From positions 1,736,001 through 1,800,000 of the forward strand of contig NZ_CP121208.1 of NCBI RefSeq assembly GCF_029625435.1: a stretch of DNA of 64,000 nt. Reading direction: 5' to 3'. Made by a program: the position numbers and the translations under genes. Every line of letters starts with the position of its first letter. Position 1 is the first letter of the stretch. Below are positions 4,992 to 61,678 of the stretch, piece after piece. The stretch is from Arcanobacterium canis (lineage in GTDB: Bacteria; Actinomycetota; Actinomycetes; Actinomycetales; Actinomycetaceae). Below the pieces are notes generated by a model. The model had not been told where the DNA came from. It ran no database searches and saw only the letters and a program-made list of their open reading frames with translations.

Positions 4992-7900
4992 CTACTGACG
5001 ACGCTGTAACTTATTAGCGAAAATTCCTCCCGCAAATCCTCCTACAGCACACAAAACGCACAAGGCCACAATCAAATACGGCCAATATGAAGCGCTATTT
5101 TGTCCACCACCGTCATGAGAATCCGGTGCGTTTGCATTAACTGAATCTGCTGGCTGCACATCTCCTGTTGCCTTGTCATCAGAAGCTGAGAATGATGATT
5201 CGGGGGACGCATCAGGAGAAACCGTCTCTTGTGAAGAAGGGCTTGCATCCCTTGCAGTACTGGAACCATCCGCCCCATTGCTGGCACCGCTCTTGCCTGA
5301 AGTACTACGATTACCAGCCGCGCCATTCGCACTAGCTGCGACATTCGCCGCACCGGCGTCGTTCACAGATCCTGCAAAAGCGGATGTTACAGGCAGAAGA
5401 TTATTTTTCTGCTGAACAAACATTGACTTTGCTTTCGCTGAAGCACTTTTTTGCTGGGCCTTCCCCGCTTTTTGGTGGTTTTGAGTTGTTTGCGCAAACT
5501 TCGCAGTTTGCGCCTGCGCAGCAGAGCTACTAGGCGACCCTTTTCTTCCAACAACTGGATCGGAAGGCGTTCTTCCGCTGTGCGAAATCCGGTTAAGCTT
5601 TGCTACGAGGGCGTCAATGCTCAATTTCTTTCCAGTTGACGCCAACACTGTGGAATCTGCATTGTGATCGACGGACGAAGCCTGATCTTTGCCTGATTTT
5701 CCTGGTTTGTCTGATTTGCTTGATCCAGTATCCTGCGAGGCTGCTTTGCTGGCTACTTCGGCTTGATGTATCGCATCATCACCCACCAAGAACGTCACTG
5801 CCAAAACAGCCTCACGCTGCGTCCCATCAGACAGGTGCAATACGTACACTAAGTCCGCGGTGTAAATTCCGGGCTTAGTGAAGTACATTGCCTCGTGATC
5901 GTGAGTTGGATAAGGATAGCTAATGAACGATTTTTCGTCTTGCGAATCGAGCTTTTTCACGAAGCCGTCTTGCAGACCAAAGTTTCCGGTAAACATTTTC
6001 CCTGGTCCGGAGAAATTGCGCAGTTTCACCGTCACGCCATCAGAGGAAAGTAAACGGTAATCAACTTTTTCAGTCGAGAACCCCACCCAGGGCACGCCGT
6101 CTTCTTGCGATTCGGGCAGCACCCATACGCCCTCAGGGTATGCCTTGGCGTATTCCTCATAGCCAGGTGCATCTGCAGGAATTGTTCTTTTAGTCTTTTC
6201 AGGCACCGCAAAAGCAAAAGTTCCTGATTGACGCGCGATGACATTTGCCGGATCCGAACCATCGTTTGCAAAAACTCGCAGATCTTTTCCGTCGAATGCG
6301 GCAGCCTGATCAATATGACCGTGACGAATAATGTGGAGATTTGCTAAATCTTGAGTGGCAGCGCCCTTCGGGGCTTTCCCGCCCTGCGCATTTTCCCCTT
6401 CCAAATTTTCTCCGCCCGTAGCGGTGCCGCTGTTTCCAGCATCAGGTTTCTCTGATGAAGGCTCTTGCGGAAGTTTAATATCTGCGCACTGTCCAGGCGT
6501 ATCACGTTCACAAATCATGCGCTGCAACTGGTAAATCGTTACATCCCCGACGGCGAAATAGAAATCGCGCCCAGAGTACGATTTATTCCCGGCTTTAGCG
6601 TAAGCTTCCAAATCCATTTTCACATGGTAAAAACCTGGCTGAGTGAAAATATGAGCCAGTTCTAGCCGTCCACTTTTATTGAAAAGTGTGCGAACCGGAT
6701 CTGTCGCTGTATCAAAAAGCTGAGTAAATTGACCGTTTTCAACCGAGCCTAGAATATATCGACCGTTCTTTGGTCCTTCAAAGACAGCCTTGGATAAAAT
6801 AACCGGCTGGTCAAGCTTATCAATCTCCATTGCTGTGGTATCCAGTGTCAAAGAACCATTAGGATCTTTAGCTCCAAGCACCCAGCGCACCCCATCATCC
6901 GTGTTTTCTCGCCTCGAATCAGGGACAAGAAATACCGGATCGTTCTTGAATACGGAACCATCTGAAGCGCTGATGGTCAGTTGCGTTTTTTGAATTTGCT
7001 TTCCGTTTTGCTCAACCGTAGCAAATTCACCTTTCATGGCAAGGGCGTCAGGTTTTTGCGGTGTTGGAAGCCAACGCGGATTTCGCACAATATCAAGCAT
7101 CTGCTTTTCAGCTAGCTCAGGCGTGAGCTTGTCGGCGTCTTTTGCCACATCAGATCCATTATTTTTCTGTGGCTCGGTGTCCGGGGTTTTCCCTGCGGTG
7201 TTGCCTGCATTAGTGGCAGGAGCCTTTGTCCCCGTCGGGATTTTAATTGGATTCACACCTGTAGTTGTGCCTTGCGGCAGTCCTACTTCTTCATCTGAGC
7301 CAACGAGCCACGTAATTCGCGCCTCGGGTGAAGTAACTTCAGTATTTGGAGCCTGGGTCGGCGTGTAAGCCGCTTTCAATCCAACGTTGTAGACGCCTGC
7401 TTTGGTAAAAGTCCAGTTCCAGTGACCGTGGAAGCCTTGTTCAATACGCAGCACTTTATTTGGCTCCGTCGAATCCAAACCACGCTTTACCGCACCGCCT
7501 CCTTCAGTACGCCACACGTGAACGTTACCTGGACCGTTATCTGCAGCGATAGAAATACGAATCTCGTTCAAACGGATACCTGTTGGCTGTGCAAGCTCGT
7601 GTTCGGTATCAAAGGCTCCCACACCTGCCCAAACTGGACGCCAATTATCAATTTGTTCCTGGGGAGCATTCCACACAATATCTCCAGCTTTTCCAAGGAA
7701 AGAGTAGGCTGGATTGGTTGGAATTTGATACCGCGAAACTTCTTTTCCATCAGATACTCGTGCATCTGGAGCTAAGCGGACACAAACCGTTGAGGAATCA
7801 GGGACCACATAGCTTCCATCAACCACTGTCATCGCAAGGTTTCCACCAATTTTCGTAGCGTAAGCTGCATCGACGTGTGAATGATGCAAGAGTTTCTTTC

Positions 7901-57326: not shown

Positions 57327-57399
<73 letters not shown>

Positions 57400-57402
57400 C
57401 TT

Positions 57403-58700: not shown

Positions 58701-58761
58701 CCACACTTAAACTTCAAACTCAAAGTTCACATGAAATTTTGAAGTTATACTTTAAGTGTGG
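58701..58761. promoter_or_regulatory. large palindromic promoter/operator of the AlbA-type gene
   Basis: Outer arms CCACACTTAAA (58701-58711) and TTTAAGTGTGG (58751-58761) and inner arms AACTTCAA/TTGAAGTT form a 61-base nested dyad. It contains TATACT (58746-58751) and ends on the GTG start itself, so the transcript is leaderless and a bound repressor would cover the promoter completely. Confidence 0.75.
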
Positions 58762-60284
58762 ACATTACCAAGGAGAATTTTGCGTCAGTAATCGAATCAC
58801 TCCGCTTGCGTCAAGGCGATAGTGACTCGATTGAAGTCAAGCGCGCACAAGGGGGACTCCCCTCCGATATGGGACGCACGATTGCAGCATTCGCCAATAT
58901 GCCTGCTGGCGGAACAATCATCTTCGGCATCGACGAAAAATCAGGTTTCACGCTCACGGGGGTCGAAGACCCTGCTTCCCTGGAAGCGGCACTGATCCAG
59001 CACTGCAGATCGCAAGTCAGCCCAGCTCCCCATATCGAAACTCACGTTTTCGACGTCGAAGAAAAGAAGGTTCTTGTTTTCGATGTGCGTCCACTTCCGT
59101 TCCACGAACGCCCGGCCACTTATCAGGGCATCGCTTATTTACGACAATCCGACGGCGAGTATCCCATGCAGCCGTGGGAACTGCGAATGATTGAATCAGA
59201 GAAATTCACTGCTTTAGAATCTCGCCGATTCGACGCCAAAACTGTTTCTGGGACGAGAGCGGACGATCTCGTCCCAGAGCTCGTCGAACGTTACCTTCGC
59301 GTCGTTCGTCGAGATTCTCCCCGGCTAACAAACCGCTCCGATGAGGAGATCTTGCGCCGAACGGGCGTTGTATCGGAAAATGGCCAACTCACTTTAGCGG
59401 GGTTGTACGGGTTGGGGGACTACCCACAAGGCGCATTTCCAGCGCTGACGATCACGGCAGCAGTGCGCCTTAGCGACACAGACGAAGAACGATCAAGGAA
59501 TCTCGTCCACTTCGAAGGGCCGATCCCCGTGCTACTTGACGAACTCATGCTGTGGTGCGAAAGATCTCTCAATCGTATTCAGCGATACAAGCCAAATGGA
59601 AAAATGGAAGATGCCCTCGAGTTGCCTTTGAGCGCGATTCGAGAGCTTGTTGCAAACGCTCTGATTCACCGTGACCTGAGTCCGAATACTCTCGATTTCG
59701 GCAAGAGCATTCAGATTCGACTGCACCCTAATAACTTGATGATTCTCAGCCCCGGTGGCCTGCGCGGGGTGTCAATTGAGCAACTTATGAGCCAATCACA
59801 TGCACAGGCTGCAGTAAACCAGACGCTCTATCAGATAATGCGTAGAATGACGAATCTCGACGGAGAGCGAATTATCGAAGGCGAAGGCGGAGGTGTTCAA
59901 CACGTTTTCGACGTCACGCACAAGCAGGGTTTACGAAAGCCGACGCTGGTCAACTCAGGAACGGAGTTCAAAGCTTTGCTGTGGCGGCCAGATCCTGGTG
60001 AACCACTATTGCCAGCTCCGCGCAAGGAAGCGACGAAGGCAGAAAAAAGACACAAATTGTCTGTGCCTCATCATTCCTCGGAAGCTGGACCGACAAAGAA
60101 TGAGCCACTGATCATCAACCTCTTACGTACGCACGGTGAACTTACGGCTCAACAAATTGCTAAAATTTCTGGGCTGACTTTGGGGCAGTTGTACTACGCT
60201 CTTGCACACGCGCGAGAGGGAGGACGCATCATCATGGAGGGGTCTCAAGGGAAACGATCAACGACCTATCGACTCCCAAATTAA
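58758..60284 (+). CDS. AlbA_2/Schlafen-type ATP-binding protein with C-terminal winged helix, 508 aa
   Basis: The N-terminal AlbA_2 (Schlafen AAA_4) domain has the typical ESIEVK-like opening (DSIEVKRAQGGLPSDMGRTI), AFANMPAGGTIIFGIDE and GIAYLRQSDGEYPM (residues about 20-150). The middle third resembles the HATPase_c_4 module (ELPLSAIRELVANALIHRDL, with the asparagine/histidine of the Bergerat-type box, about residues 290-310). The C-terminus is a winged helix (HGELTAQQIAKISGLTLGQL). Such proteins are often autoregulators or linked to phage defence, and the biochemical role is open. It starts with GTG inside its own operator palindrome, and repeats of that operator also follow the gene. Confidence 0.8.
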   Translation: MDITKENFASVIESLRLRQGDSDSIEVKRAQGGLPSDMGRTIAAFANMPAGGTIIFGIDEKSGFTLTGVEDPASLEAALIQHCRSQVSPAPHIETHVFDVEEKKVLVFDVRPLPFHERPATYQGIAYLRQSDGEYPMQPWELRMIESEKFTALESRRFDAKTVSGTRADDLVPELVERYLRVVRRDSPRLTNRSDEEILRRTGVVSENGQLTLAGLYGLGDYPQGAFPALTITAAVRLSDTDEERSRNLVHFEGPIPVLLDELMLWCERSLNRIQRYKPNGKMEDALELPLSAIRELVANALIHRDLSPNTLDFGKSIQIRLHPNNLMILSPGGLRGVSIEQLMSQSHAQAAVNQTLYQIMRRMTNLDGERIIEGEGGGVQHVFDVTHKQGLRKPTLVNSGTEFKALLWRPDPGEPLLPAPRKEATKAEKRHKLSVPHHSSEAGPTKNEPLIINLLRTHGELTAQQIAKISGLTLGQLYYALAHAREGGRIIMEGSQGKRSTTYRLPN

Positions 60285-60306
60285 GCAGCCCGTACTCATA
60301 TGAAAT

Positions 60307-60386
60307 CCACACTTAAACTTCAAATTCAAAGTTTATATGAGAGTTTAAGTGTGGATTTAAACTTAAAGTATAGACTTAAAGTGTGA
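60307..60386. repeat. downstream copy of the AlbA-gene operator repeat
   Basis: The first 34 bases from 60307 match 58701-58734 at 31 positions (same orientation) and continue into TTTAAGTGTGG (60344-60354). Two further ACTTAAAGT units follow (60361-60384), one beside TATAG. No gene starts here: rlmC ends at 60425 on the other strand. Confidence 0.75.
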
Positions 60387-60424: not shown

Positions 60425-61678
60425 TCACGAGACGCGTTCAAGCAACACGATCGTCTCGAAGTGAGCGGTGTGAGGGAACATGTCAAGCACTTGAGCCTTG
60501 ACCACGCTATACGAAGGCATCGCAGCAAGATCTTTTGCCAACGAATTCACATTGCAACTCGAATACAACACTCGTTGCACACCCGAACCCTCAAGCCACT
60601 GTGCAAGCTCACCGATCCCGCGGCGCGGCGGATTGACCACCACCAACTGCGGTAACGACGTCGGCGCAGAACCTTCCTGCGACGCCCACGCCGTCGCATC
60701 AGCGCAGATAAAGCGAACAGCGCCACCCATGCCGATTGCATCAGCTCCAGCGCATCCTGCATCCACCGCTTCTTGAGAAGTCTCCACACCGATCCCGCTA
60801 AAGTCGCGCCCGGAACGCTTTGCGGCACTTGCCAGAGCAAGAAGGAATCCTCCAACGCCGCAATACAGATCCCAGGCCGAGTCCACGTCTCCACACCACT
60901 GAATAGCACGTGAATACAACGCCTCAGCAATATCAGTATTGGTTTGGAAGAACGATTTCGGACGAAGGAAGAGATCCACCGGATACTCATCCCAGGTCTG
61001 GCCTACCCACAAACGCATCGGCAAAGTCGCACGTTCGGAGATGACGATTTCTTCTTCACCCTCAATCACGGCCTTGCGCTCACTTTGGACATTGAGGGAG
61101 AGCACAGCCATATTTGGCATAGCGGCCTCAAGTTCTTTACGCAATTTGAAAAGGATGCCCTGCACTCCTCGTCTACGTGCAACAAAACGAACCATCAGTT
61201 CGCCACTCGGCGCTTCGACAATAATGACGTATTTTAGTGTCCCTCTATTCGTTGCCGGAGAATACGGCTCTAGCCCAGCACGCGTAATAAAAGCTCGGAG
61301 AGTTTCAATTACGGTGCGGATCCCCGCTGATGGCAAGGGACAATCAGCCAGGTCAACGCCGACGCCGTCGGAACCGAGGATGCCGAGCTTGGGCTGGCGC
61401 ACTGAACCCGTCACCACAAGTTTCACTTTATTGCGGAACGCTTCTTTGACGCTTGTGACAGGATCTAGCCACTCTTGGGCATGGATCAAACCACGAGCGC
61501 GCAGGTCCTTGGCAGTCAACTGAGAATCGAGAGGCTGCTCAATCGAGGAACACGAGCGACACAAACCATTTTTATAGTCCTCACAGTCGAGAAGCTGCAT
61601 CGCAGTGCGCTGCGAGAGTTCCACAGCCGGGCGATGGACTGGCCCGCGCGTGAGATTGTGGCGAATTTCTTGGGTCAT
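60425..61678 (-). CDS. rlmC: 23S rRNA (uracil-C5)-methyltransferase, RlmC type
   Basis: 417 residues of the TrmA/RlmCD family. Near the N-terminus CEDYKNGLCRSC supplies iron-sulfur cysteines typical of RlmC. Then the SAM-binding fold (AWDLYCGVGGFLLALA), VVNPPRRGIG, the catalytic cysteine in YSSCNVNSLAKDL and the C-terminal DMFPHTAHFET follow. It methylates a 23S rRNA uridine (U747 in E. coli). The HAD phosphatase gene ends 11 bases upstream, suggesting one transcript. Confidence 0.9.
   Translation of the reverse strand: MTQEIRHNLTRGPVHRPAVELSQRTAMQLLDCEDYKNGLCRSCSSIEQPLDSQLTAKDLRARGLIHAQEWLDPVTSVKEAFRNKVKLVVTGSVRQPKLGILGSDGVGVDLADCPLPSAGIRTVIETLRAFITRAGLEPYSPATNRGTLKYVIIVEAPSGELMVRFVARRRGVQGILFKLRKELEAAMPNMAVLSLNVQSERKAVIEGEEEIVISERATLPMRLWVGQTWDEYPVDLFLRPKSFFQTNTDIAEALYSRAIQWCGDVDSAWDLYCGVGGFLLALASAAKRSGRDFSGIGVETSQEAVDAGCAGADAIGMGGAVRFICADATAWASQEGSAPTSLPQLVVVNPPRRGIGELAQWLEGSGVQRVLYSSCNVNSLAKDLAAMPSYSVVKAQVLDMFPHTAHFETIVLLERVS

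Follow-up and report, generated by a model that had tools for sequence, protein, structure and literature searches.

Proteins that combine a Schlafen domain, a kinase-like domain and a winged helix-turn-helix (wHTH) are widespread and have been linked to defence. Fusions of a Schlafen RNase with a minimal histidine kinase and a wHTH are associated with BREX and anti-phage modules according to the sections of PMC12839542 available to us, which also cite a bioRxiv preprint about bacterial Schlafens. The domain order of these fusions, AlbA_2/Schlafen, HATPase_c_4 and winged helix, is the same as that of the protein described here. However, our gene stands alone, with arrays of short sites on both sides and no adjoining BREX genes, whereas those sections make no mention of arrays. 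Another described relative is TrlG from the temperature restriction locus of Photorhabdus, an AlbA_2 and HATPase_c_4 protein that restricts growth at high temperature and whose loss restores growth (PMC7554251). TrlG shares these domains and a patchy distribution with the present family, but it is encoded in an operon of three genes together with a small regulator that is a distinct protein, and the accessible part of that report does not mention arrays, whereas our gene is single and bracketed. The best structural matches to the modelled protein were 3lmm (Corynebacterium diphtheriae DIP2311; Foldseek 1.3e-22) and then 2kyy (a RecG-related N-domain; 6e-6) and SLFN14; 3lmm and 2kyy are structural-genomics structures, and a literature search for a functional paper on either found none. 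What is new here is a putative self-operator that brackets its own gene in the Schlafen/histidine-kinase-like/wHTH family, and this bracketing touches on the question of how a possibly toxic nuclease stays silent and moves between genomes.

The features of the locus within the window, that is, the whole 64-kb stretch of the Arcanobacterium canis genome that was analysed, are listed in Table 1. The two Pfam domains of the encoded protein were found with E-values of 1.6e-16 and 5.1e-17; PF04326 (SLFN_AlbA_2) reached 61.4 bits against a gathering score of 25.3, and PF13749 (HATPase_c_4) reached 62.1 bits against 26. Residues 449-505 matched wHTH proteins both by profile and by fold, so the AlbA_2/Schlafen protein with a C-terminal winged helix recognised in a preliminary description of this DNA is confirmed by the Pfam, profile and fold matches. 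Residues D21, E26, K28 and E60 are conserved among homologues. The RNase site of Schlafen13 consists of three acidic residues (E205/E210/D248 in rat SLFN13; PMC5862951), and D21, E26 and E60 may be equivalent to this three-carboxylate site. NCBIfam contained no specific family for the protein, and PADLOC returned only partial-domain matches to pAgo-type models and no catalogued defence system. Fish PKZ Z-alpha was among the best fold matches of the modelled winged helix (target-normalised TM 0.78-0.92 over about 60 residues), a likeness that probably reflects generic wHTH similarity.

Table 1. Features of the bracketed AlbA_2 locus (positions in the window)
Feature	Position	Strand	Description
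Upstream operator array (putative)	58701..58761		61-bp imperfect palindrome with perfect 11-bp outer arms CCACACTTAAA/TTTAAGTGTGG; spans promoter and start codon
Possible -10 element	58746..58751	+	TATACT; from sequence, assignment weak
AlbA_2 gene	58758..60284	+	508-aa protein, GTG start; SLFN_AlbA_2, HATPase_c_4 and C-terminal winged helix (Pfam, profile and fold matches)
SLFN_AlbA_2 domain	58821..59168	+	Residues 22-137 (Pfam)
HATPase_c_4 domain	59700..59978	+	Residues 315-407, histidine-kinase/RecG-C-like (Pfam)
C-terminal winged helix	60102..60272	+	About residues 449-505 (structure model, profile and fold matches)
Downstream operator array (putative)	60303..60358		Core palindrome with perfect 17-bp arms, 60303-60319 / 60342-60358
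Two more half-sites	60359..60386		ACTTAAAGT at 60361 and 60374, 13 bases apart; beyond the downstream core palindrome

The upstream array equals its own reverse complement at 42 of 61 positions, a palindrome score matched by 3 of 1000 dinucleotide shuffles, and the GTG start (58758-58760) lies inside its right arm. None of 1000 shuffles scored as high as the downstream palindrome. Positions 60307-60340 are a direct copy of the left 34 bases of the upstream array (31/34; 35/40), and with the two additional half-sites the whole downstream cluster occupies 60303-60386. The local alignment of the two arrays scored 27.5, compared with a shuffle maximum of 15 (0/1000). Thus, the palindrome over the promoter and start codon, the copy of its left half with extra half-sites after the stop, and the repeat-bounded cassette that they form were all recovered as the preliminary description had reported them. 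The downstream cluster is rearranged and richer in half-sites than the upstream array. No recombinase was found between the arrays; the AlbA_2 gene is the only gene there.

These sites are private to the locus. ACTTAAA occurs six times on either strand of the window, always within the two arrays, and the three copies of the exact 11-mer CACACTTAAAC in the whole 1.87-Mb genome are likewise confined to them. When nine genomes of the genus were searched, the inverted pair CACTTAAA-N16-46-TTTAAGTG was found only at the two window arrays and was absent from the eight congeners; therefore, paired sites of this type do not form a wider regulon in these genomes. The window array as such was not found in 98 relatives, apart from one weak 29-bp match (G037, E=0.0075). 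A promoter scan found no sigma-70 consensus pair at the upstream array. Because the start codon lies 7 bases past TATACT, the transcript is likely to be leaderless. Judging from this layout, the gene is probably autoregulated through its private palindromic array over the promoter.

Of 99 genomes, 40 carry homologues, a count that includes the genome of the window, and 79 named homologous loci, nearly all from Actinomycetota, were retrieved. Alignment A2 served as the query for these loci; a broader alignment, A1, had no conserved block. Many homologues carry iterated or palindromic words in their promoters, and these words differ from gene to gene. A locus was taken as bracketed when, among all windows of the locus, the 250 bp after the stop codon shared the most 9-mers with the promoter array. 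This was the case in 22 of 98 homologous loci, compared with 2.06 expected, and in 2 loci when the window was displaced to 500-750 bp downstream; further paralogues contributed four more dual-array loci (L074, L075, L077 and L079). Alignments of upstream with downstream sequence exceeded z=4 in 34 of 107 loci, some of which repeat flanking DNA rather than an operator, compared with 21 of 523 neighbouring ORFs used as controls, whose strongest matches were concentrated in a few loci. The motifs differ between bracketed loci and include CTACTCGAAAA, AACACTCA, CTCTCAACT, ACTTCCCAC and AGAGTGTAAA, among others. Array-gene-array bracketing therefore recurs far above chance, with an unrelated motif at each locus. 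About a quarter of the distant relatives are bracketed, but with entirely different words. The gene and the sites around it therefore appear to form a single unit in evolution and transfer.

Bracketing is nevertheless not a constant property of the family. About 75 of about 100 homologues hold the gene without a detectable downstream copy, so the strict form of the earlier proposal, in which the repeat would always bracket the gene, does not hold, and the downstream array is not needed for basic autoregulation. Other parts of that proposal are supported: the sites are private to the locus, and the arrays of related cassettes are gained and lost with the gene, their empty sites having none. On a tree of 101 proteins with 22 rows scored as bracketed, at least 12 changes were needed, compared with 20 for shuffled labels; the trait is thus partly inherited and has been repeatedly gained or lost.

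We give a probability of roughly one half to the reading in which binding of the winged helix to both arrays shuts down the protein's own leaderless promoter and closes off the cassette at its two ends. The cassette would consist of array, gene and array and would encode a Schlafen-type (AlbA_2) domain, a histidine-kinase-like ATPase and a winged helix. The winged helix would bind the ACACTTAAA-type half-sites in both arrays. At the upstream array it would cover the promoter and start codon and so repress its own gene, while binding of the downstream array as well would seal the 3' side of the unit. The simplest way to do so would be a loop of about 1.6 kb that bridges the arrays, or a shielding of the gene from antisense or neighbouring transcription. 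Looping is our guess from the anatomy. A putative growth-arresting nuclease would thereby be kept silent in foreign surroundings, to be released only when a signal reached the ATPase domain, and the unit would be inherited and transferred with both arrays. In short, we infer that the window gene is a self-silenced, signal-activated nuclease. In loop repressors of the lac and gal type, one repressor acts at two separated operator clusters. The window cassette would be similar in operator layout, but differs in that both clusters flank the single gene of the presumed repressor itself and nothing else.

Two simple accounts of the downstream array were rejected. First, it does not serve as a promoter for the gene that follows. 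That gene in the window is trmA-like (60425-61678) and convergent to the AlbA_2 gene, so the downstream copy is not its promoter, in agreement with the preliminary description; among bracketed loci some downstream neighbours are convergent and others codirectional, and the second array is therefore not a conserved promoter. Second, the repeats are not remnants of tandem gene duplication: in the aligned cases they end where the array ends, ahead of the start codon, and never extend into coding sequence.

The perfect 17-bp arms of the downstream palindrome could also suggest that the repeats act as RNA, with a 3' stem-loop serving as a terminator or stability element and a leader structure at the 5' end. 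We find this hardly credible, because no T-run follows, a terminator scan made no call, the Rfam search gave no match beyond a tRNA, and transcription from a leaderless start would hardly include the upstream copy, which is part of the promoter. Moreover, several bracketed relatives carry direct instead of inverted repeats (L011, ATGACTATGACT; L149/L154, CCTAGGAAGT), and the second array is therefore not an RNA hairpin in those loci.

The position of the extra arrays is also informative. They lie just after the stop codon in about 26 loci and further upstream in only about four. If the downstream array were a decoy that buffers free protein, as the preliminary description also considered, it could sit anywhere, yet nearly all directly follow the stop codon, and a single extra cluster of sites would be a small sink; such titration seems highly unlikely to us, even with the surplus of half-sites downstream in the window and the lack of any gene with the downstream array as its promoter. 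At L076 and L022, the gene is preceded upstream by a tandem pair of array copies, the kind of arrangement that loss of the gene from a neighbouring cassette might leave.

Related cassettes within the genus allow the arrays and the protein to be compared. The proteins of G002 and G008 are 61% identical and their cassettes occupy non-homologous sites, and in both genomes the gene has an array of about 110 bp on either side. On both flanks, G008 has the half-site CGAGTAG, where G002 mostly has CTAGTAG. Arrays within one genome are 88-97% identical, compared with 64-65% for the orthologous arrays of G008 and G002; either gene conversion or selection for binding by a protein that itself changes would give this pattern.

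To separate words from spacers, diverged bracketed loci with recognisable repeated words were used (n=15). An idle downstream copy would be expected to lose its words as fast as its spacers. Words repeated within the array agreed better between the upstream and downstream copies than spacers in 15 of 15 loci, and the pooled identity was 92% for words and 74% for spacers (Wilcoxon P=6e-5), a difference of which a part could arise from non-word columns at alignment ends that overrun the array. Simulated random mutation of the same sequences gave a word-minus-spacer difference of -0.01.

This preferential conservation of half-site words argues against the possibility that the downstream array is a by-product, whereby unequal recombination or cassette insertion duplicates the promoter array, gene conversion homogenises the copies, and only the upstream one works. 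The copies are nearly always direct, and in L028, L030 and L134 they are 95-100% identical, spacers included, as recent duplication or gene conversion would also make them. Long non-operator direct repeats surround the gene in other family members, and the greater likeness of arrays within a genome than between orthologues points the same way. However, a by-product would not readily explain the excess of extra arrays after the stop codon, the retention of the bracket between 61%-identical proteins at different loci, or the rearranged window cluster with more half-sites than its upstream counterpart. We therefore consider a by-product unlikely and retain closure of the cassette by its own protein as the preferred reading.

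Occupied and empty sites were found in the genus for the related cassettes of G002 and G008 at their two sites, A and B, whose flanking genes are present in all nine genomes. In the empty state, the app1-like and gntR genes lie 10-210 bp apart in G000, G001 and G006, and the SprT-like gene and the membrane gene lie 60-140 bp apart (G006, G001) or have an unrelated acetyltransferase-like gene between them; no array is present in any of these. Because relatives without the gene also lack both arrays, the unit gained or lost appears to be array-gene-array. At the window's own locus no clean empty joint was found; G002 keeps the flanking genes with other genes between them. The interval between tRNA-Arg(ACG) and the trmA-like gene holds an AlbA-family gene both in the window genome (tRNA at 57327-57400) and in the congener G005 (L066 5680-5753). 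The two genes lie in opposite orientations and have different arrays, and this double occupancy of one interval suggests an insertion hot spot. REP-like dispersed intergenic palindromes (aaaatctcg...cgagatttt) also occur in G005, some beside the AlbA gene (L066 5890-5965, 8075-8150, 10425-10505).

In G003, which has no homologue of the gene, a solo array with CTACTCG/CGAGTAG half-sites adjoins a tRNA-Gly gene (L176 3697-3801); it is what recombination between direct repeats would leave. The array is that of a related cassette. At L140 (4659-6819) and L145 (4741-6854), a single AlbA-family gene is flanked by an intact tRNA-Met on one side and by a duplicate of the tRNA 3' end on the other; the end repeats measure 92 bp and 29 bp, and the units resemble integrase-less islands of about 2 kb. 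At L140 both arrays lie inside these repeats, and no integrase was seen near either gene.

Such observations might be taken to mean that a minimal mobile element ends in these arrays, which the protein marks or pairs before its own nuclease, or a recombinase supplied in trans, excises or integrates the element. The same cassette with both arrays at different loci, the empty sites without arrays, the gene-less array beside tRNA-Gly and the two genes between duplicated tRNA-Met ends would all fit. Yet the cassette has no recombinase, a search of genomes for the array showed no spread to multiple copies, the bracketed loci share no common target or target-duplication length, no IMG/VR viral contig matched, and the tRNA-end repeats are a mark of ordinary integrases acting on a carrier. 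Mobile ends are thus quite unlikely in our view.

In other members the gene is flanked by repeats of a different kind. At L109, L113, L027, L150 and L156 it lies between direct repeats of flanking DNA of 137-463 bp. Insertion with long target duplication has been described for restriction-modification genes, and these five loci resemble it; that process repeats target DNA, whereas bracketed members repeat the gene's own operator. No recombinase was seen in the single-gene units between tRNA-Met ends or flanking-DNA repeats, so these units probably move in trans or by homologous recombination. At L150 (4336-7090, Bifidobacterium catenulatum) the gene lies between two copies of a 463-bp segment comprising a 40-codon ORF and a terminator; B. 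ruminantium has a single copy (L157 3057-3590) and, about 1.4 kb from it, a bracketed cassette of its own. The insertion at L109 (4760-4896 / 6859-6995) precedes a UvrA-like gene, and its 137-bp duplication includes about the first 36 codons of that gene, so that the intact UvrA-like gene lies downstream and an orphaned 5' fragment upstream.

Should silencing or transfer prove to depend on the downstream array, bracketing would represent a new means of packaging a defence gene so that it insulates itself. With private arrays that drift together with the protein, each family member's DNA word could be read from its own flanks. A far broader and doubtful extension is that minimal gene units bear an address of their own on each end, with a product that reads both arrays and so controls expression as well as mobility or retention, and that this address turns over fast enough to give each lineage a private code.

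Among Bacillota homologues on plasmid and phage records, the promoter array had its best match after the stop codon in 0 of 4 records. The homologues on an L. iners plasmid and on a satellite phage have iterons upstream. A distant homologue in the Streptococcus satellite phage Javan341 (L212 2471-5276) adjoins an integrase and carries upstream iterons composed of TATCTTGAGAT repeats.
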